This document shows, in pieces, positions 2,918 through 14,014 of a DNA stretch of 64,000 nt. The stretch spans positions 1-64,000 of the forward strand of contig NZ_WQPK01000019.1 of the NCBI RefSeq assembly GCF_018785265.1, in the 5' to 3' direction. This DNA comes from Collinsella aerofaciens. Its GTDB lineage: Bacteria > Actinomycetota > Coriobacteriia > Coriobacteriales > Coriobacteriaceae. Positions within the stretch are counted from its first letter, which is position 1. Each line of letters begins with the position of its first letter. Both the position numbers and the translations under genes were made by a program. The notes under the pieces are model-generated. The model was not told the DNA's origin. It ran no database searches and worked only from the letters and a program-made list of their open reading frames with translations.

Positions 2918-5900
2918 ATGGAAGTGCTAGTTGTTGGCAACACCGCATATGTTGACGATGACTTTTGCGCCAAGGCGTTCCCCGGGGACCACGTTAAGGT
3001 CGTCGCTGCCGCGGAAGCGCGCCACGATGAGTCGTCGCCTCATGCTTCGTGGAAAGAGCTACTCCAGCACTTGGATCAGGCCTACGAGTTCGACCGCGTG
3101 GTCTATCTATCTAATTACCTTACCCCGCATACCGATACCGTGGGCGATATCGAGCTGCTGCGCTCGGTCTTTCGTACGTGCGCGGGTCGCCGGGTCCAAC
3201 TGCTGTATGTAGCGGGGCCCGCGGGTGCCGAGGGTGCCGCCGATGCCGCGGGGCGAACGGGCAAGGGAATTATCGCCCGCGCAGCCAACGACCTGTGCCG
3301 CTACTACGCTGCTAGCGAGGGCGTTCAGACCAAGATCCTGCGCGTGCCGTTCCTGTATACCGCGTCCGCCGCGCTGGAGGACCCGTTTTTGGTGCCGCTG
3401 TTCGACGCGTGCTCAACTGGATCGGTCGCTCTGCAGGGCGCGCAGGATGCGGCGTTTCCCCTGCTGTGTGCCGAGGAGCTTGCGGTGTTGGTACGCCGTA
3501 TCTTCGACAGCTGGGATGGTAACTTTGAGATGCTCGACGTTGCCGATACCTTCCATCACACGTCAGGTGAAGTTGGCGACGCCCTCAAGGCACTGTTCCC
3601 CGGCCTTGCCGTTGCCTATGGCGATTCTGCCGGCTACGCCCTGCCCGTCAGCGGCGTCGTTCGCGTGCGTTATGGTTGGTTTCAGCGCTACGACCTGCTG
3701 CGCGATCTTTCGACCATTCAAGCGCGTTGGGATGCTGGCCGCGCAAAGAAGGTTAACCCCTTGCGCGCCGCCATCGACCGCATCCAGATGCGCGCGCTGC
3801 CTATTAAATGCCTGGAGACGGGCGTTGCCTGGGTCCTGTTCGAGGTGCTGGAGCATCTGTTCTCCCAATCGGCCCAGCTCAACGTGCTTGATTATCGCCT
3901 GCTCTACGTGGTGCTGATCGGCACGCTGTATGGCTTGGACTTTGGCCTGGTTGCGGCGCTGCTGGCGTCGGTGGGTTTGGCCGCGAGCTACTTTACTCAG
4001 TACGGCTATACCTTCCAGGGCCTGTTCTACGAGCCGTCCAACTGGCTGCCGTTTATTGCGTACTTTGTGGTGGGTGCCGTGTGCGGCTATGTGCAGCTAC
4101 GCAACAGCGAAGCCATTAGGGCGGAGCGCGATCAAAATGAGCTCGTTCGCAACCGCAATACGTTCCTTACGCAGCTCTACCACGACGCGATCGAGGACAA
4201 GCGCGCGTACAGGCGCCAGATCGTGGGTCGCCACGACAGCTTTGGCAAGATCTTTGCCGTGACGCAGGAGCTCGACGTGCTCAACCCACGCGACATCTAT
4301 CGCAAGTGCTGCGAGCTTCTGGGCGAGATTCTCGAGAACGATTTGGTGGCGATCTACCATGTTTCGGGCGGGGCATTTGCACGCCTGGTGGCAGCAAGTC
4401 CCGCGATTGCCGAAGATGCCGCACGCTCGCTCACGCTTGAGCAGCTTGCGCCTCTTTTGGGCGACGGGGGTCGTTCGAGCCTGTGGGTGAATCGCGAGCT
4501 GACGCCGGGGCTTCCCATGTTTGGATACACGATCGAGCGCGACGGGGCACCCGCCGTGTTGATTTTTGTGCGTAGTGCGGCCGAAAACCAAATGACCCTC
4601 TATTATCAAAACCTGTTCCGCATCTTGTGCGGCCTGGTCGAAAGTGCGCTGGGCCGTGCTTTTGACTATGAGGCGGTGGCGCAGGATAAACGCTGCGTTG
4701 ACGGTACTTGCGTGCTCAAGCAGGCTGCCTTTGGCCAAGAGCTCGCGGCGGAGCAAGCGCTGGCAGATAGCAAGATGGGGAGTTTTTTGCTCCTGCGCGT
4801 GGTACCGGGCGTGGAGCCTGTTGGCGAGCTGGTGGGCGCAATTGGGTCGGCAATCCGCGAGAGCGACGCGGCGGGCTTGGTCGACGGCGACGTACTCTAC
4901 CTGCTTATGCGTCAGGCAAAGGCGTGCGATCTGCCCATTATCCGCGAGCGCCTGAGCGCAAAGCATATTGCGGTGGAACCCGTCGACGGCGAGGACATCG
5001 TGGCGTTGTTGCAGCACATCTCTTACACCGGTGACGGTGAGGGGGGGTGCCGCTTGATCTCGCTTGTCGTTGCTGCCGTCTTGCTGCTGATTCATGCGTT
5101 GGTTTGCCTGATGCTGTGGACGCTCATGAAGCTGGGCCTGCTGCCGGTGCGCGGGCACATGCTGGCTGTGATAGTGCTGGTGCCGCTGTGGGGTCCGTTG
5201 CTGGTGGTTCTGCTATCGGTCTGCAGCGCGATGTTTGGCGAGGGGCTGAAAGAGTCTGCGCTGGAGTCGCTGCGCTTCAACGACGACCTGCATCGCAGTA
5301 TGCCGGTACCGAGTGGTGAGGACGATGCAGGCGTAGTGCCGCTCGAGGAGGCGCTCATCGTCAATGACCCGGCATACCGGCGCCGCCTAATGCTCTCCAT
5401 GCTCACCGAGGAGCCCGACGCTTACCTGGCGCAGCTGCAGGTGGCTAAGCTTAACGACGACGTTGAGGTGGCGCACTATGCCGCGACGGCGGTGGCGCAG
5501 ATCTCCAAGGAGTCCGACCTTAAACTGCAGCAGCTGGAGCGTGCCTTTAAGACGGACCCGAGCGCGCAAAACCTCAACGAATACTGCGATTTTCTTGGTG
5601 AATACTTGGGCTCGGGCTTGGCCGAGGGGCGCGTGGCTCAGATTCAGCGCCAACAGTACGCGCGCCTGCTTGCGCGTCGCTGCGAGCGCGAGGATACCCT
5701 TGAGCTGCGCATTCGATACGCGACGGCTCTGGCCGATGTCGGACAGATCGACGAGGCGCAGGCCGTGACCGACCAGCTGGTGCTCGACGTGCCCGACGAG
5801 CAGGAGGTTTGGATGCTTTGCCTGCGCCTGGCCGTGATGCGCCGCGACGGTGACGAAGTCCACCGTGTGATCGATGCGATTGACAAGCAACATGTGTATT

Positions 5901-5959
5901 TGAGCGCCGACAACCGCGAAAAGTTGGCGTTTTGGCGCGACGGGGATGAGGTCCGATGA
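2918..5959 (+). CDS. SDR-PelD-PelE triple fusion, c-di-GMP receptor of a Pel-like system
   Basis: A 1013-residue protein. Residues 1-270 look like an NAD-dependent epimerase/SDR domain (N-terminal MEVLVVGNTAY, later YYAASEG). Membrane segments span about 304-390 and a GAF domain about 444-575. A degenerate GGDEF (about 590-705) reads DGDVL at 656-660, with RESD at 647-650 at the exact spacing of the RxxD c-di-GMP inhibitory site. Two more membrane helices (about 712-775) and a TPR-like tail complete the order PelD then PelE. PelD is the c-di-GMP receptor of Pel polysaccharide synthesis and PelE its membrane partner. The SDR part may supply or modify a UDP-sugar, or may be structural. The start has GGGGAGGA upstream. 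The stop overlaps the next ATG (ATGA). Confidence 0.75.
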   Translation: MEVLVVGNTAYVDDDFCAKAFPGDHVKVVAAAEARHDESSPHASWKELLQHLDQAYEFDRVVYLSNYLTPHTDTVGDIELLRSVFRTCAGRRVQLLYVAGPAGAEGAADAAGRTGKGIIARAANDLCRYYAASEGVQTKILRVPFLYTASAALEDPFLVPLFDACSTGSVALQGAQDAAFPLLCAEELAVLVRRIFDSWDGNFEMLDVADTFHHTSGEVGDALKALFPGLAVAYGDSAGYALPVSGVVRVRYGWFQRYDLLRDLSTIQARWDAGRAKKVNPLRAAIDRIQMRALPIKCLETGVAWVLFEVLEHLFSQSAQLNVLDYRLLYVVLIGTLYGLDFGLVAALLASVGLAASYFTQYGYTFQGLFYEPSNWLPFIAYFVVGAVCGYVQLRNSEAIRAERDQNELVRNRNTFLTQLYHDAIEDKRAYRRQIVGRHDSFGKIFAVTQELDVLNPRDIYRKCCELLGEILENDLVAIYHVSGGAFARLVAASPAIAEDAARSLTLEQLAPLLGDGGRSSLWVNRELTPGLPMFGYTIERDGAPAVLIFVRSAAENQMTLYYQNLFRILCGLVESALGRAFDYEAVAQDKRCVDGTCVLKQAAFGQELAAEQALADSKMGSFLLLRVVPGVEPVGELVGAIGSAIRESDAAGLVDGDVLYLLMRQAKACDLPIIRERLSAKHIAVEPVDGEDIVALLQHISYTGDGEGGCRLISLVVAAVLLLIHALVCLMLWTLMKLGLLPVRGHMLAVIVLVPLWGPLLVVLLSVCSAMFGEGLKESALESLRFNDDLHRSMPVPSGEDDAGVVPLEEALIVNDPAYRRRLMLSMLTEEPDAYLAQLQVAKLNDDVEVAHYAATAVAQISKESDLKLQQLERAFKTDPSAQNLNEYCDFLGEYLGSGLAEGRVAQIQRQQYARLLARRCEREDTLELRIRYATALADVGQIDEAQAVTDQLVLDVPDEQEVWMLCLRLAVMRRDGDEVHRVIDAIDKQHVYLSADNREKLAFWRDGDEVR

Positions 5960-7836
5960 GCGTGGCACAACATATCCGCGACCGTGCAGGCCGCTTTCGT
6001 TGGATGGGGCTCCTCGTGGTGTGGGCGGTCTTTATTGCCATGGCCGCCGTGCTGCTAGTGGAGCGTGCCGGCGTGCAGTACAGTGCGGGCCAGCATAAGC
6101 TGGGGATGCTTGCCGCCAACGATGCGGTGCCGGCCTCCTCGGCAATCTTTGGCCAAAAGCCCACGTGCCTGGTCATTACCGATTCCGATCAAGCTGGCGT
6201 CGAGGACGTAAAGGAACAGTTCGACCAGATTTTGCTGGACATGAAGATCGCGCACCGCGACGTGGACCTTGCCCTGGATGGTGCGGATGCCATTCCCTCG
6301 CTGACCTCCTTCGATCGCGTGATTTTGCTCATGCCGTCGCTCGATGGGCTCGGTACGCACCTGAGCGACATTATGGGTTGGGTGAGTGCCGGCGGTTCTC
6401 TTATGCTCGCCATGCCGCCGGATAACTCGAGCTATCTGCAAGTGATTGCCTCCAAGCTTGGCATTGAATCGGCCGGATATGACTATGTAAAAGCCGAAAG
6501 CATTGTGCCGAGTGAGGACTTTATGCTGGGCGGGGGAGAGCGCTACGAGTTCTCGGATCCCTTCGATTCTTCACTTTCGGTTTCATTGCGCGAAACGGCG
6601 CACGTCTGGGCAAATACCGGTGACGCGGGCACACCGCTCATTTGGTCTAACGATTGCGGCAGTGGTCACACCGTGGCGTGCAACATTGGCATCTACGACA
6701 AGGTCATGCGTGGGTTCTATGCTTCGGCCATAAGCTTGCTGGGTGAAGCCACGGCCTATCCGGTCATCAACAGCGCCGTGTTCTATTTGGACGACTTTCC
6801 CAGCCCTGTGCCCTCGGGCGACGGCACCTACATCAAGCGCGACTACGGGCTTTCCGTCGCCGATTTTTATGCCAAGGTCTGGTGGCCCGATCTGCAAGAG
6901 CTCGCGCAAAAATACGGCATTCGCTATACCGGCGTGATGATCGAAAACTACGAGGACGCGGTCAACCAGACCGAGCCTGCGCGCCAGGCCGATACCACGC
7001 AGTTTCGCTACTTTGGCGGCATGCTGCTGCAGATGGGCGGAGAGCTGGGCTTTCACGGCTACAACCATCAGCCGCTGGCGCTCTGGGACACCGACTACGG
7101 TACGCTGTACGACTACAAGACGTGGAAGAACAAAGAGACGCTCGTCGCTTCGCTCAACGAACTTATCGCGTTTCAGGACGAGGTCCTGCCCAATGCTCAT
7201 GGCTCGGTTTACGTGCCGCCGTCGAATATCCTTTCGGCCCGCGCGCGCAAGCTTATCGGTACCGATGTTCCGCGCATTAAGACCATTGCCAGTACGTATT
7301 TTGAGGATGGCACCGACCTGCCGTACGTGCAGGAGTTTGGCGTGGCGAGCGATGGCATTGTGGAGCAGCCACGTATTGTTTCGGGCGGCATGGTCGACGA
7401 TTCCTATATGCGCCTGGCAGCCGTGTCCGAGCTCAACATGCACTACGTGAGCACTCACTTTATGCACCCGGACGACCTGCTCGATCCCGATCGCGGCGCC
7501 AAGGAGGGCTGGGAAGTCTACAAGGGCGGCCTGGTCGACTACCTGGACTGGCTTACCAAGTCTGCGCCCGACCTGCGCCGCCAGACGGCGTCGGAGTGCT
7601 CCGGTGCCATCCAGCGCTTTTCGTCGGTTACGGTGAGCGTGGATACCAGTGCGGATGCCTGGACGCTCAGCCTGGGCAATTTCCACGACGAGGCGTGGTT
7701 CATGTTCCGCGCCAATAATGGCGAGCCGGGTGCGGTGACGGGTGGCGAACTGACGCACCTTACGGGCAATCTGTATCTGCTCAAGGCAAATGATAAGACC
7801 CTGACGATCGAGCGCAAGGAGGGTGGCGACAGATGA
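5956..7836 (+). CDS. DUF2194 polysaccharide deacetylase (PelA-like)
   Basis: A 626-residue membrane-anchored protein with one N-terminal helix (about residues 16-37). A Rossmann/amidotransferase-like segment (about 70-200) is followed by a deacetylase-like domain. That domain has YLDDFPSP (D279, D280) and FHGYNH (H367, H371): an aspartate and an HxxxH pair, the metal-binding pattern of PelA-type deacetylases. It probably de-N-acetylates the polymer outside the membrane. No glycoside hydrolase domain like that of Pseudomonas PelA is evident here or in a neighbouring gene. Four-base overlaps with both neighbours indicate translational coupling. Confidence 0.75.
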   Translation: MSVAQHIRDRAGRFRWMGLLVVWAVFIAMAAVLLVERAGVQYSAGQHKLGMLAANDAVPASSAIFGQKPTCLVITDSDQAGVEDVKEQFDQILLDMKIAHRDVDLALDGADAIPSLTSFDRVILLMPSLDGLGTHLSDIMGWVSAGGSLMLAMPPDNSSYLQVIASKLGIESAGYDYVKAESIVPSEDFMLGGGERYEFSDPFDSSLSVSLRETAHVWANTGDAGTPLIWSNDCGSGHTVACNIGIYDKVMRGFYASAISLLGEATAYPVINSAVFYLDDFPSPVPSGDGTYIKRDYGLSVADFYAKVWWPDLQELAQKYGIRYTGVMIENYEDAVNQTEPARQADTTQFRYFGGMLLQMGGELGFHGYNHQPLALWDTDYGTLYDYKTWKNKETLVASLNELIAFQDEVLPNAHGSVYVPPSNILSARARKLIGTDVPRIKTIASTYFEDGTDLPYVQEFGVASDGIVEQPRIVSGGMVDDSYMRLAAVSELNMHYVSTHFMHPDDLLDPDRGAKEGWEVYKGGLVDYLDWLTKSAPDLRRQTASECSGAIQRFSSVTVSVDTSADAWTLSLGNFHDEAWFMFRANNGEPGAVTGGELTHLTGNLYLLKANDKTLTIERKEGGDR

Positions 7837-9260
7837 GAATCTGCCTGGTACTCGAGGGTTGCTACCCCTATGTGCACGGCGGCGTATCTACCTGGATGCA
7901 TGGCTATATCCAGGCCATGCCCGAGCACGAGTTTGTGCTGTGGGTGATTGGCGCGCATGCTGCCGACCGCGGCAAATTTGTCTACGAGCTGCCCAGCAAC
8001 GTGGTCGAGGTGCACGAGGTGTTCCTGGACGATGCCCTGCGGCTTTCGGGCGAGCAACATGAAGCCAGTTTTAACGACCGCGAGCGCGAGGCGCTACGCC
8101 GCCTGGTGTCGCTCTCCAATCCGGACTGGGACGTGCTGTTCGATATCTTCCACCGCCGCCGCGTGCATCCGCTCTCGTTTTTGCAGAGCCGCACGTTTAT
8201 GGATATCTTCCGCGACGTGTGCCTTGCCGAGTACCCCTACACGCCCTTTGCCGACGCATTCCACACCATGCGCTCTATGCTGTTGCCGGTGCTCTACCTG
8301 CTGGGCAGCGAGGTGCCGGTTGCCGATGTGTACCACGCTATCTCGACCGGCTACGGCGGCCTGCTCGCTTGCCTGGGCTCAAGCGTTCACCATGCGCCGG
8401 TGCTGCTGACCGAGCATGGCATCTATACCCGCGAGCGCGAGGAAGAGATCATTCGCGCCGACTGGGTGGTGCCGTCGTTTAAGGACCGCTGGATCCGCTT
8501 TTTCTACCTGCTTTCGGAGGAGATCTACAGCCGCGCCTTCCGTGTGACGAGTTTGTTCCATAACGCCCGCAAGACGCAGATCGATATGGGCTGCGATGCG
8601 GGTAAATGCCTAGTCATCCCTAACGGCATCCAGTTCGACCGCTTTAAGGATATTCCTTTAAAGCCCGATGACGGCTGGGTGGACATTGGCGCGGTGGTGC
8701 GCCTGGCTCCCATCAAGGACGTCAAGACTATGATCTATGCCTTCTTTGAGCTGCACGAGCGCCTGCCTAAGGTGCGTCTGCACATCATGGGCGGCGTGGA
8801 CGACGAAGAGTACGGCGCCGAGTGCCACGCGCTGGTCGATACCCTGGGCGTGCGCGACCTGATCTTTACCGGTCGCGTCAACGTGGTCGAGTACATGGAA
8901 AAGCTCGACTTTACCATTTTGACGAGCATCTCCGAGGGCCAGCCGCTCAGCGTGCTGGAGTCGCTTGCAGCGCGCCGTCCCTGCGTGACGACCGAGGTGG
9001 GCTGCTGCCGCGAGCTACTCGAAGGCGCCCCGGGCGACGACTTTGGCGTGGCGGGTTTTGTGACGCCGCCCATGTATCGCAAGGGCTTGGCCGATGCCAT
9101 GGAGCGCATGTGCGTGAGCCGTGCCCGTCGCATTGAGATGGGGGAGCGCGGGCAGCGTCGAGTTGCCACGTACTTTTTGCACGAGCAGATGCTCGCCAAC
9201 TATCGCGCGCTGTACGACGAGACGGCGCGTGCGTTTAACCTGCCCAGAGAGGGGGAGTAG
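7833..9260 (+). CDS. pelF: PelF-like GT4 glycosyltransferase
   Basis: A 475-residue cytoplasmic glycosyltransferase. The N-terminus (LVLEGCYPYVHGGVSTW) is the hallmark of the PelF/DUF3492 family. The GT4 EX7E nucleotide-sugar motif appears as SEGQPLSVLES near residue 370. PelF polymerises UDP-sugars into the Pel chain and works with PelG and the PelD/PelE platform at the inner face of the membrane. It starts inside the stop of the deacetylase gene (ATGA), and pelG follows three bases after its stop. Confidence 0.88.
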   Translation: MRICLVLEGCYPYVHGGVSTWMHGYIQAMPEHEFVLWVIGAHAADRGKFVYELPSNVVEVHEVFLDDALRLSGEQHEASFNDREREALRRLVSLSNPDWDVLFDIFHRRRVHPLSFLQSRTFMDIFRDVCLAEYPYTPFADAFHTMRSMLLPVLYLLGSEVPVADVYHAISTGYGGLLACLGSSVHHAPVLLTEHGIYTREREEEIIRADWVVPSFKDRWIRFFYLLSEEIYSRAFRVTSLFHNARKTQIDMGCDAGKCLVIPNGIQFDRFKDIPLKPDDGWVDIGAVVRLAPIKDVKTMIYAFFELHERLPKVRLHIMGGVDDEEYGAECHALVDTLGVRDLIFTGRVNVVEYMEKLDFTILTSISEGQPLSVLESLAARRPCVTTEVGCCRELLEGAPGDDFGVAGFVTPPMYRKGLADAMERMCVSRARRIEMGERGQRRVATYFLHEQMLANYRALYDETARAFNLPREGE

Positions 9261-9263
9261 CCG

Positions 9264-10808
9264 GTGGCCGGAATTGGTTTTGAGCTCAAGCGCCTGTTTA
9301 GGCGCAAAGGCCTGTTTGCCACGATGCGCGCTTACGGCTACGCCGGCATTGTGTGCACGGGCCCCATGCTGTTGGGCGTGCTACTCCAGGTGGGTATCTT
9401 GGTGCTGTGCGGTCTGTGGGGCGTGGGGCGCGCCAACCAGGACCTGCTGGTGTGCATGGTGACCTATACGCTGCTGGCGTCGCTCACGCTCACGAGCTTT
9501 TTCTCTATGCCGGTCACGCGTTTTTTGGCCGATATGCTCTTTGCCGAGCGCGAGGATGAGATCCTACCTTCGTTTTGGGGCTCCAACGCCATCATGCTCG
9601 TTGCGGGCACGGTGCTCTACGGCGTCTTTTTGCTGTTCTCGGGCGCCACGCTGCTGCAGGGGCTGCTGTGCCTGTGGCTGTTCAACATTATGATCGTCAA
9701 CTGGAACGGCATGAGTTACCTCACGGCCATCAAGGATTACCGCGGCGTCCTGTGCAGCTTTGCGGCTGCCATTGGCGTGGCGTGCCTGTGCGCCCTGGCC
9801 GCGCTGGCGCTGGGACTGCCGCCGGTCGAGGGCCTGTTGGCGTCAATTGCTCTGGGCTACGGCGTCATGCTCGCCTGGGACGTGGTGCTGCTGTACCGGT
9901 ATTTTCCTCAGAGCGACCGCAGCCCCTGGCCCTTTTTGCGGTGGCTCGATCAGTTTATGCCGCTGGCGCTCACGGGTCTGTTAACCAATCTGGGACTCTT
10001 TGCGCACCTGGTGATTATTTGGACCGGTCCCATTGGCGTGCAGGTCAAGGGCTTCTTTTATGGTGCGCCCTACTACGATGTGCCGGCGCTCATCGCGTTT
10101 TTGACCATCCTGGTCACGACCGTCAACTTTGTGGTCTCGGTCGAGGTCAACTTCTATCCGCGCTACCGCGACTACTACAGCCTGTTCAACGACGGCGGCG
10201 TGGTGGGCGACATTGTGGTGGCCGAGGAGGAGATGCTCTCCACGCTCAACAGCGAACTGCGCTTTTGCGCGCTCAAGCAGCTGTTTGTGACCGCTGCGGT
10301 CATTTCGCTCGAGACCACGGTGCTCTCGGCCCTGCCGCTGGGCTTTAACAACCTTATGCACGGGTATTTTCGCACGCTGTGCGTGGGCTATGGCTTGTAT
10401 GCCGTGGGCAATACGGTGATGCTCATCTTGCTGTACTTTACCGACTACAAGGGAGCCGTGCTGGCTTCGGGCCTGTTTGGCGGTGTGGCCGGGCTGGCGA
10501 CTGCCGTGTCGTTGCTTTTGCCGCAGCAGTTTTACGGCTTTGGCTTTTTGTTGGGTGCGGCGGTGTTTTTTATCGTGGCGCTGCTGCGGCTCGATACCTA
10601 TACCGCCAACTTGCCGTATCGTATCCTGAGCCAGCAGCCTATTGTGGCGACCGACAAATCGGGCTGGTTTACCGAACTTGGCCGGGTGCTCGACCGTGTT
10701 GAGCAATGCTACGAGGACAAGCGCGCGGGCGGTGAGCCGCGCAGTGCGTTTGAACGTATGGTGGTTCGCCTGTACCAAAAACATTGGGGAGGTTCTGATG
10801 ATCGATAA
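9264..10808 (+). CDS. pelG: PelG-like polysaccharide transporter
   Basis: A 514-residue polytopic membrane protein with about twelve hydrophobic segments. Its N-terminus (MAGIGFELKRLF) is typical of PelG, the MOP/Wzx-like flippase-type transporter of Pel systems. The GTG start has GGGGGAG just upstream. The C-terminus is cytoplasmic and hydrophilic. It would export the chain made by PelF. The last 11 bases overlap the start of the CotH gene. Confidence 0.85.
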   Translation: MAGIGFELKRLFRRKGLFATMRAYGYAGIVCTGPMLLGVLLQVGILVLCGLWGVGRANQDLLVCMVTYTLLASLTLTSFFSMPVTRFLADMLFAEREDEILPSFWGSNAIMLVAGTVLYGVFLLFSGATLLQGLLCLWLFNIMIVNWNGMSYLTAIKDYRGVLCSFAAAIGVACLCALAALALGLPPVEGLLASIALGYGVMLAWDVVLLYRYFPQSDRSPWPFLRWLDQFMPLALTGLLTNLGLFAHLVIIWTGPIGVQVKGFFYGAPYYDVPALIAFLTILVTTVNFVVSVEVNFYPRYRDYYSLFNDGGVVGDIVVAEEEMLSTLNSELRFCALKQLFVTAAVISLETTVLSALPLGFNNLMHGYFRTLCVGYGLYAVGNTVMLILLYFTDYKGAVLASGLFGGVAGLATAVSLLLPQQFYGFGFLLGAAVFFIVALLRLDTYTANLPYRILSQQPIVATDKSGWFTELGRVLDRVEQCYEDKRAGGEPRSAFERMVVRLYQKHWGGSDDR

Positions 10809-12567
10809 GTTGATGTCTCGCCGCTGCCTGATCGAGGCGGCTGCCGGCGCGCTGTTGCTTTCGGGCTGCTCGTCTCAGGACGAATCCTCGACTAAAAAGG
10901 TCAAAAAGCAGGGCAAGATTAAAAAGGCCGAGGCCTCCGACCAGTCCAAGCACCTGCGCGATAAGGACGAGCTGTACGAGGTCTACGACGACTCGGGCAT
11001 TGTGACCATGTACCTGACGGTCTCGCGCGGTAACAGCTCCGAGAACACCGATCATAGCTGGGCCGAGATCAATACGTACTCGGTGTATGACTACGCCGAC
11101 ATGGGCGTGACGCGCTATCAGGTAATGGGGCTTTTGCAGGCGGGCGACGAAGACGGCCCGGTGGCCGGTGAGGTTGGCTATGGCGAGGAAGCGCCCAATG
11201 CTACCGTGCAGGTGTGTGGCCAGACGTCGAGCATGAACTCGCAAAAGAATTACAAGGTTGAGCTCAAAAAGGGCAAGGGTAGCTGGCGCCAACAGCGCGC
11301 GATTGCGCTCAACAAGCACATGGGCGAGGGTATGCGTTTTCGCAACAAGATGGCCTACGACCTTATCCGCGGGATTCCCCAGATGATGGGCCTGCGCACG
11401 CAGTTTGTGCATCTGTGGGTGTGCGACCAGACCGAAAAGTCCAACGACACCTTTGAGGACTACGGCCTGTTTACGCAGGTTGAACAGCTCAACAAGACGG
11501 CGCTTAAGGCACATGGCCTGGATAAGAGCGGGCATCTGTACAAGGTGAACAGCTTTGATTTCCATCGCTACGAGGATACCATTAAGCTTGCTGACGACCC
11601 CGACTACAACCAGGCAAGCTTTGAGGGCATGCTCGAGATTAAGGGCGATTCGGACCACACCAAGCTCATCGAGATGCTCGATGCGCTCAACGACGAATCG
11701 CAAAAGATCGATGACGTGCTCGACACCTACTTTGATACCGAGAATCTGGTCTATTGGTTGGCGTTTCAGATCCTGACGGGCAACTGCGATACGCAGAACC
11801 GCAACTGCTATCTGTACAGCCCGCTTAACTCCAAGGTCTGGTACATCCTGGATTGGGATAACGACGGCATGCTGCGTAAGCTTGAGCTGAGCCTGACGGG
11901 GTTCTCGGATTATGCGAGCTGGGAGCGCGGCGTAAGCAACTACTGGGGCAACGTGCTATTCAATCGTGCGCTGCGCAGCAAGGCGTTCCGCGGTGAGCTC
12001 GATCGCGCCGTCAAGGACCTGCGCTCGTATATGACCGAGGCACGCCTGACCAAGATGATCAAGCACTACCGCGAGGTGACTGAATCCCTGGTCTTTGCTT
12101 CGCCCGATATCGACAATCTGCCTGTCACCAAGGACCAATACGAGCAGATCGCCGCGTCGATTCCCTCCGAGATCGAGGAGAACTACAAGAGCTTTCGCGA
12201 GAGTTTTAAAAAGCCCATGCCGTTCTACATCGGCGTGCCGCAGATCGATAACGGTAAGCTGCGCATTAACTGGGATGCGTCCTACGACTTTGAGGCGCGC
12301 GACATTCGCTACACCGTAGAGCTTGCGCGCGACTATGCCATAAGCGACGTGTTCTTTAAGGCCGAGGACGTGCTGCTTCCCGAGGTGACCTGCGATGCGC
12401 CCGATGCCGGCCAGTATTTTGTGCGCGTGCGTGCCGCCAACTCCGACGGCTTTACGCAAGATGCGTTTGACTACTATGTGACTGACGACGGTAAGCACTA
12501 CGGCATGAAGTGTTTTTACGTGCAAGACGGCGGTAAGGTCGTGGAGGACACGTATGAGGAGGGCTAG
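10798..12567 (+). CDS. CotH kinase-family lipoprotein
   Basis: A 589-residue secreted lipoprotein. Residues 1-24 form a signal peptide ending in the lipobox LLSGC (C24). A CotH-like domain follows, with ILDWDNDG (D352, D354, D356) corresponding to the metal-binding aspartates of CotH kinases. The C-terminal 100 residues look like a fibronectin-III or Ig-like domain. The ATG at 10798, seven bases after GGGGAGG, is preferred over an upstream in-frame start, because only this start gives a proper signal peptide. CotH proteins are atypical extracytoplasmic kinases, first known from Bacillus spore coats. Linkage to pel genes suggests a role in surface attachment or modification of the polymer; this is inference. 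Confidence 0.8.
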   Translation: MIDKLMSRRCLIEAAAGALLLSGCSSQDESSTKKVKKQGKIKKAEASDQSKHLRDKDELYEVYDDSGIVTMYLTVSRGNSSENTDHSWAEINTYSVYDYADMGVTRYQVMGLLQAGDEDGPVAGEVGYGEEAPNATVQVCGQTSSMNSQKNYKVELKKGKGSWRQQRAIALNKHMGEGMRFRNKMAYDLIRGIPQMMGLRTQFVHLWVCDQTEKSNDTFEDYGLFTQVEQLNKTALKAHGLDKSGHLYKVNSFDFHRYEDTIKLADDPDYNQASFEGMLEIKGDSDHTKLIEMLDALNDESQKIDDVLDTYFDTENLVYWLAFQILTGNCDTQNRNCYLYSPLNSKVWYILDWDNDGMLRKLELSLTGFSDYASWERGVSNYWGNVLFNRALRSKAFRGELDRAVKDLRSYMTEARLTKMIKHYREVTESLVFASPDIDNLPVTKDQYEQIAASIPSEIEENYKSFRESFKKPMPFYIGVPQIDNGKLRINWDASYDFEARDIRYTVELARDYAISDVFFKAEDVLLPEVTCDAPDAGQYFVRVRAANSDGFTQDAFDYYVTDDGKHYGMKCFYVQDGGKVVEDTYEEG

Positions 12568-13345
12568 CGCGCTGCTTGAGCGCTTGGCGGCCCCGCCTGT
12601 GCGTGCCACGCAGGAGCGTTACCGCCATGAGCTCAAATATCTCATTAACGAGGGCGAGCACGCCGCGCTTGCCTGTCGCATGGCGCCGGTGTTTAAGCTG
12701 GACAAGCATGCGCGGGCGGGCGGTTACACTATTCGCAGCCTGTATTTTGATGACTACCGAAACTCGGCCTACGAGGAAAAAGACGCCGGCATTCTCATGC
12801 GCAAAAAGTATCGCGTGCGCATCTATAACGGCAGCGACAAGGTGATTAAGCTTGAGCGCAAAAAGAAGTACGGCAGCTGGATCTACAAGGAGGACGCGCC
12901 GCTTACGCGCGGTGAGTTTGAGCAGATTCTGGCTGGCGACTACGACTTTTTGCTGAGGAGCCCTTATCCGCTCTGTCGCGAGTTCTACATCGAGTGCATC
13001 TGCAACATGATGCGCCCGCGGACCATCGTGGACTACGAGCGCGAGCCGTGAGTGATGGATGAGGGCACCGTGCGCATTACGTTTGACATGAACGTGCGTG
13101 CCGCGGTGGGAAGCTTCGATATCTTTGACGCGACGCTGCCCGCGCTGCCGGTCCTGGAGCCCGGCAAGCTGGTGATGGAGGTCAAGTTTACGGAGTTTTG
13201 CCCGCAGCTGGTGCGCGATATTGTGCCGCCGGGAGCGGCCGAGCTTACGGCGGTCTCCAAGTACTGTCTGTGTTACGAAAAGACCGCCTACCTGCGCGGA
13301 TTTAATTACTGGGAATCGGATTTTGAGAACCGAGGGGATATTTAG
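12554..13345 (+). pseudogene. VTC-domain (polyphosphate polymerase-like) gene interrupted by in-frame TGA
   Basis: Two halves of one VTC domain lie in the same frame, separated only by a TGA at 13049-13051. The 5' half (12554-13051, 165 residues) carries RHELKYLI, IRSLYFDDYRN, RKKYRVRIY and KLERKKKYG, the basic tunnel strands of VTC4-like polymerases. The 3' half (from GTG 13052 or ATG 13055) carries VRITFD, LVMEVKF and KYCLCYEK. In this family the region reads continuously. It may be a nonsense mutation, read-through, or a split gene restarted at the adjacent GTG/ATG. It overlaps the cotH end by 14 bases. VTC proteins here are usually small cytoplasmic partners of CotH and DUF4956. Confidence 0.75.
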
Positions 13346-13348
13346 ACC

Positions 13349-14014
13349 ATGAGCACCAGGGACTTTTTTAAGAACTCCGTCTTGGAGGCGTTTGGCCAGG
13401 TCGACCCTGCCAAGATTGGCCTTTCGCTGCTCGTGGCGCTCGCCATGGGCATCCTGATCTATTGCGTGTACAAGCGCTTTTTTACCGGCGTGGTGTATTC
13501 GCGCAGCTTTGCCGTGACGCTTGTGGGCATGTGCGTGCTCACCTGCATGGTCACGCTCGCGATTTCGACCAACGTGGTCATCTCGCTCGGTATGGTCGGT
13601 GCTCTGTCAATCGTCCGCTATCGTACGGCGGTTAAGGACCCGCTCGACCTGCTGTATCTTTTTTGGGCCATTACCACAGGCATTACGGCAGGCGCCGGCA
13701 TGTACGCGCTCGTGGGGCTTACGGCAGTGGTGATTGTGGTGATGATTGCCGGCTTTGCGAGCCGCCAGGACAAGGCGCGCGTGTACATGATGGTCATCCA
13801 CTACACGGGCCAGACTACTGGCGACGATATCGTGCGCGCATTTGGGCGCACCAAGTTTACGGTGAAGTCCAAGACCATGCGCGGTGACAAGGTGGAGATG
13901 GCCGCCGAGGTGTTCTCGGACGGTGTAGATATGCCCTATGCTGACGCCATTCGCGCGCTCGACGGCGTGGAAGACCTAACGTTGATCCAATACAACGGCG
14001 AATATCACGGGTAG
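13349..14014 (+). CDS. DUF4956 membrane protein
   Basis: A 221-residue protein with four or so hydrophobic helices in the first 140 residues, including the conserved LGMVGALSIVRYRTAVKDP segment, then a soluble C-terminal domain of about 75 residues. This is the DUF4956 family, whose biochemical function is unknown; it commonly accompanies VTC-domain and CotH genes. It starts three bases after the stop of the VTC gene, with GAGGGGA upstream, and closes the Pel-like operon. A hairpin at 14064-14087 without a T tract follows. Confidence 0.8.
   Translation: MSTRDFFKNSVLEAFGQVDPAKIGLSLLVALAMGILIYCVYKRFFTGVVYSRSFAVTLVGMCVLTCMVTLAISTNVVISLGMVGALSIVRYRTAVKDPLDLLYLFWAITTGITAGAGMYALVGLTAVVIVVMIAGFASRQDKARVYMMVIHYTGQTTGDDIVRAFGRTKFTVKSKTMRGDKVEMAAEVFSDGVDMPYADAIRALDGVEDLTLIQYNGEYHG

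Follow-up and report, generated by a model that had tools for sequence, protein, structure and literature searches.

We find that the window, a stretch of 64,000 nucleotides from Collinsella aerofaciens (contig NZ_WQPK01000019.1), contains a complete Gram-positive pel operon, pelD-pelE-pelA(DA)-pelF-pelG, followed by cotH, VTC and DUF4956 genes, and that the fusion of PelD to PelE seen there comes down to a single base in a homopolymer, a difference that only the window sequence shows among the genomes compared. The explanation of the whole locus that we regard as very probably correct is a Gram-positive pel operon with PelD as a c-di-GMP receptor, a separate PelE, and an apparent fusion arising from a change of G6 to G7. 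In this mechanism, PelD would be a membrane receptor whose I-site (R647 and D650, plus R678) binds c-di-GMP, and the bound receptor would switch on the PelD-PelE-PelF-PelG synthase/exporter, with polymer presumably made. PelE would be a TM-TPR scaffold in its own right, whose usual synthesis depends on translational coupling through a TTGA overlap and a G-rich Shine-Dalgarno sequence, and the N-terminal SDR head of PelD may have a structural role. The extra G of the window brings both frames into register.

Layout of the pel operon

The initial annotation described a single protein joining an SDR-like domain to PelD and PelE, and its reading of the frame was accurate. Positions 2918-5959 on the forward strand form a single open frame with an ATG start encoding 1013 aa (frame listing and translation), and the domain order, RESD at 647-650 and DGDVL at 656-660 fall where it had placed them. 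Five residues separate R647-E-S-D650 from D656-G-D-V-L660, the RxxD-x5-GGDEF spacing that it had pointed out. The segments of the frame are:

aa 1-270 of the 1013-aa frame: SDR-like head
aa ~295-400: TM region (DUF4118-like match at 303-397)
between the TM region and GAF: coiled coil
aa ~440-590: GAF
aa ~600-705: degenerate GGDEF-like domain with I-site
aa ~714-775 of the 1013-aa frame: two TM helices (PelE part)
C-terminal tail of the 1013-aa frame: TPR (PF14559, E=3.8e-5)

The features of the operon are:

2918-5047, + strand: pelD portion (SDR head, TM, coiled coil, GAF, degenerate GGDEF); residues 1-710 are 97% identical to the PelD of relative G030, which is intact at 711 aa
4856-4867, + strand: I-site RxxD (R647-E-S-D650), R and D invariant in 12 homologues of several genera
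4883-4897, + strand: DGDVL (656-660) at the site of the GGDEF motif, which varies in alignments of homologues
4949-4951, + strand: R678, invariant in 12 homologues, positional counterpart of B. cereus R395 and P. aeruginosa R402, which act in c-di-GMP binding (PMC7112168)
5042-5048, + strand: G7 run (DNA alignments and run counts), also the likely Shine-Dalgarno sequence of pelE
5054-5959, + strand: pelE, TTG start, two TM helices and TPR tail (TPR matches), ~300 aa, a separate ORF in all relatives found
5956-7836, + strand: pelA(DA), DUF2194, deacetylase-like (PF09960, E=2.3e-172), operon position as in PMC7112168, ATGA overlap with pelE
7833-9260, + strand: pelF glycosyltransferase (NF038011 PelF, 319.7 bits against a cut-off of 100)
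9264-10808, + strand: pelG transporter (PF16933, E=3.9e-137)
10795-12567, + strand: cotH-like kinase gene (PF08757, E=4.1e-64)
12554-13345, + strand: VTC polyphosphate-polymerase gene (PF09359 on the N-terminal part; DNA alignment)
13349-14014, + strand: DUF4956 membrane protein (PF16316, E=2.3e-12)

The genes are tightly packed, with ATGA overlaps at pelE-pelA and pelA-pelF and the others nearly overlapping. As in the Gram-positive pelDEA(DA)FG arrangement, pelF and pelG are adjacent (NF038011 and PF16933, both well over cut-off) and pelD is followed by pelE, the two being separate genes in relatives. Between pelE and pelF lies a DUF2194 protein (PF09960), a putative deacetylase. The nearest named database records are those of Collinsella. 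The region upstream of pelD gave no match to a c-di-GMP riboswitch or any other RNA family, and a consensus search there found no sigma-70-like promoter. An ATPase and a partner gene upstream of the operon (700-2621) match PDC-M12A and PDC-M12B (E=3.5e-89 and 3.7e-27), a pair that is a candidate for phage defence.

The whole operon was also observed, in the same order, in Faecalibacterium (L058), with PelF 78% and PelG 72% identical to those of Collinsella and PelD and PelE just 41-42% identical. These identities point to transfer between phyla, with PelD and PelE appearing to change far faster than the synthase.

PelD and its predicted c-di-GMP docking site

A profile check for PelD and PelE gave a negative result: Pfam and NCBIfam hold no PelD or PelE model that matches this protein. 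No solved PelD structure was found among the PDB sequence-profile matches or among the 50 fold matches listed. PelD is known to drift in sequence, and a direct profile or structure match is not strictly defining. We base the PelD/PelE assignment on operon context (PelF by NF038011, PelG by PF16933), fold matches and the I-site triad.

Fold prediction agreed with the SDR-like head of the initial annotation. We modelled nine homologues with AlphaFold (mean pLDDT 63), and Foldseek placed the head with extended SDRs, GDP-fucose synthase, RmlB and GalE being examples (E ~1e-7 to 1e-6). A model of the C-terminal part by itself (pLDDT 69) gave matches to GGDEF and GAF structures; both models are only moderate. 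The head has no TGxxGxxG glycine motif, reading VVGNTAYVDDDF at the N-terminus, and no catalytic Tyr and Lys, with the YGISK of the matched enzymes aligning to KGIIA. It does not qualify as an active SDR epimerase and is catalytically dead, with a fold that is still that of an extended SDR. The missing glycine motif, Tyr and Lys are in line with the probable inactivity of actinobacterial heads (PMC7112168).

The TM region, GAF and degenerate GGDEF of a PelD are present, with the GAF and GGDEF matches coming from the moderate structure models. Pfam matches the GAF in one homologue, and a profile of the GAF-GGDEF part of 12 homologues finds PDB diguanylate cyclases with the I-site RxxD in register, although the match is weak (best E=0.0096). 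Only 10 columns are invariant in these 12 homologues, which reach down to 22% identity, and R647, D650 and R678 are among them, while the GGDEF motif varies freely across the same proteins. Because the three residues are invariant over such distances, the RxxD I-site and third arginine of PelD are present as more than a chance motif. Because the triad is invariant while the GGDEF motif varies, it is well supported that the window PelD is a receptor and not a cyclase; the intact I-site and the unlikely cyclase activity, with DGDVL at the motif site, had both been proposed at the outset. Judged by motif and spacing, the counterparts of the triad in B. cereus PelD are R363, D366 and R395, each of which that bacterium requires for c-di-GMP binding and biofilm (PMC7112168), and we infer from the sequence that the window PelD would bind c-di-GMP as well.

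Two GGDEF proteins of the genome, 521 and 391 aa long, keep the motif intact. The genome also encodes a response regulator that combines a degenerate GGDEF (GCDKF) with an HD-GYP domain, the latter read from motifs in the translation and not from a profile, one GGDEF protein with a broken frame, and an EAL remnant covering domain positions 171-236 only. Given these intact cyclases and the HD-GYP protein, c-di-GMP turnover is likely. The initial annotation had linked c-di-GMP to polysaccharide synthesis in a coriobacterium and had counted a genome lacking c-di-GMP enzymes as evidence against itself; the enzymes are present, and the link holds. The EAL fragment sits immediately upstream of a GGDEF gene that is intact (L075, G000:C32:85500-92500), the picture that loss of a phosphodiesterase would leave.

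The pelD-pelE junction and the seventh G

In same-genus relatives, the matches to PelD (1-714) and PelE (708-1013) lie in different frames with a TGA between them (search of 101 genomes). PelE is its own ORF in 11 of the 11 other Collinsella genomes having the junction, and a separate ORF of ~300-350 aa in other Coriobacteriia matches of clear score, other Actinomycetota and Faecalibacterium. A search of 45 genomes of the genus, 400 of the class and 397 of the phylum gave a 1025-aa frame from the window alone, with PelE separate in the remaining Coriobacteriia and Actinomycetota matches. We therefore reject a conserved SDR-PelD-PelE fusion family: the ORFs are separate everywhere else in these three sets, and the comparison of domain order over Coriobacteriia and others gave a single fused ORF in no other genome. 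A second candidate fusion, G017, has a match that spans both query parts in one frame; it was rejected, as a TAG parts two adjacent same-frame genes.

The relatives' junction reads GAGGGGGGTGCCGCTTGATCTCG, with the pelD end ...GEGGAA-TGA in the junction DNA alignment. In close relatives the pelD TGA overlaps the pelE TTG as TTGA, downstream of a G-rich Shine-Dalgarno sequence. Because the pelE frame of the relatives contains no ATG or GTG from the preceding stop to this TTG, we infer that the TTG of TTGA is the pelE start. The window has G7 at the junction, one G above all aligned Collinsella except G037 (G8); with the seventh G, the pelD frame therefore misses the TGA and enters pelE. Run counts in 12 genomes, the window included, gave a pure G6 in five (G002, G030, G018, G019, G016) and a run interrupted as GGGGGA or GGGAGG in another five (G013, G011, G040, G027, G043), all of which keep the frames apart. 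The G8 of G037 takes the pelD tail 88 codons into the third frame, with pelE still open as a separate ORF (loci L062, L047). G002 is 98% identical to the window over 499 bp and, around the junction, identical except for its G6. When nine relatives are aligned along the 11-kb operon, the window departs from them by a net frameshift at the G run and nowhere else.

The single-gene fusion of PelD and PelE was thus not borne out: relatives hold two ORFs, and the frames are joined only by the seventh G at 5042-5048. Separate genes in relatives, parted through a frameshift, are what the initial annotation had named as evidence against a fusion. Part of its architecture stands, namely PelD then PelE with an added SDR head, and the conserved triple fusion in one protein does not. 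We also rejected a conserved mechanism in which the ribosome would make a fusion by -1 frameshifting at the G run, as the slippery heptamer needs pure G and is broken in 5 of 12 genomes.

What the seventh G represents can be read in several ways. Tentatively, it may be a sequencing or assembly error in a strain with ordinary pelD and pelE, since G002, which is near-identical at the junction, has G6 and homopolymers are where such errors occur. However, a 7-G run is usually read correctly by short-read machines, the operon has no second net frameshift, the rest of the window shows few isolated indels against two relatives, hardly any in homopolymers, and G037, a different assembly, has G8.

Somewhat doubtful is a pel operon decaying in this strain, with the fusion as one lesion among several. 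An in-frame TGA at 13049-13051 cuts the VTC gene of the window where 9 of 9 aligned relatives have TGG (DNA alignment), and relatives contain a pelD remnant (G006) and further truncations; yet the window keeps pelA, pelF, pelG, cotH and DUF4956 intact. Across the loci compared, truncating lesions number four in pelD (an IS element and a T6-to-T5 frameshift in G002, a TGA in G356, a frameshift in G325), one in VTC (the window) and one in DUF4956 (a frameshift in G013), with none in pelE, pelA, pelF, pelG or cotH. By gene length alone, at least 4 of 6 lesions would fall in pelD with P=0.014, a value for a pattern spotted post hoc in few genomes, some of them drafts, and we take the excess as a lead only.

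The apparent insertion element that splits G002 pelD (L057:1-180, L054:9690-9769) has the inverted ends GGCTCTGTTAGACC and a target duplication of 8 bp, ATTATCAA. Two further genomes of coriobacteria have a TGA (L087:9895-12024) or a frameshift (L088:8971-11063) between the SDR head and the rest of PelD; these breaks could be lesions or a split gene.

It is unlikely that the seventh G is real in the strain and that a fused PelD-PelE is made and works. Both parts are complete in one frame with no conserved residue lost, and the topology would permit it: PelE, whose N-terminus is predicted to be cytoplasmic, is the partner of PelD in one complex, and the cytoplasmic end of PelD would meet that N-terminus. 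The sequence also does not look error-ridden, because the G run is the sole net frameshift in the operon. However, such a fusion is seen in no other genome, pelE keeps its own Shine-Dalgarno sequence and TTG, and the operon may not be under full selection here because VTC carries a stop.

We consider very improbable a phase-variable tract in which slippage shifts pelD among three forms, separate at G6, fused at G7 and extended at G8, and thereby tunes Pel production: lengths of 6, 7 and 8 do occur inside one group of close relatives, and a natural pelD nonsense mutation in S. intermedius AP2 turns off aggregation (PMC12345266), but the run is short and interrupted in 5 of 12 genomes, as expected of a Shine-Dalgarno sequence and not of a kept contingency tract. 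Still more remote is a G run acting as a slippery switch, giving two proteins, one fused protein or an altered PelD tail, that underlies strain-level Pel variation in gut Collinsella.

Comparison with known Pel systems

With separate pelD and pelE genes as the preferred reading, a false gene fusion is corrected before entering annotation. Gut Collinsella and other Coriobacteriia carry an SDR-type pel operon, an intact predicted c-di-GMP docking site and c-di-GMP-making enzymes, and Pel under c-di-GMP control is therefore testable in a common gut genus. Judged by title or abstract, none of the six papers found to name both Collinsella and c-di-GMP concerns c-di-GMP-controlled Pel.

A degenerate SDR head on PelD with CotH, VTC and DUF4956 companions is already published for Gram-positives including actinobacteria (PMC7112168) and was taken up again for streptococci (PMC12345266). 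The PelD proteins that Whitfield et al. (2020) reported to have an SDR head come from Brevibacillus, where it is possibly active, and from streptococci, clostridia and actinobacteria, where it is probably inactive; genes for CotH, polyphosphate polymerase and DUF4956 lie downstream (PMC7112168). The main text of that paper does not mention the genus Collinsella. Raju et al. (2025) reported a degenerate SDR head in S. intermedius PelD and cited four PelD classes (PMC12345266).

Pseudomonas aeruginosa, like the window, has a TM-GAF-degenerate GGDEF receptor (PelD) beside a TM-TPR partner (PelE); however, its PelD has no SDR head, its pelD and pelE are separate genes, and we found no significant sequence match of the window protein to either product. 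Bacillus cereus ATCC 10987 (pelDEADAFG) shares the RxxD I-site, the third arginine and the operon order, whereas PelD of most bacilli, including B. cereus, has no SDR head. c-di-GMP binding has been measured for B. cereus PelD (KD 103 nM; PMC7112168) and is predicted for the window PelD. The class IV PelD of Streptococcus intermedius shares the degenerate SDR head, TM region, GAF and CotH companion but has no GGDEF, while the window PelD keeps a GGDEF with an intact I-site (PMC12345266). The Gram-positive SDR-PelD of actinobacteria, clostridia and streptococci has the same degenerate SDR/epimerase head, TM region and GAF as the window, a GGDEF that is kept outside streptococci, and the same operon order with CotH, polyphosphate polymerase and DUF4956 companions (PMC7112168). 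The window differs from it in that the frame continues into pelE through one extra G. Altogether, the window PelD combines a degenerate SDR head with an I-site GGDEF, and the locus is an ordinary one except for the G run, which may be slippery, and the repeated lesions in pelD.
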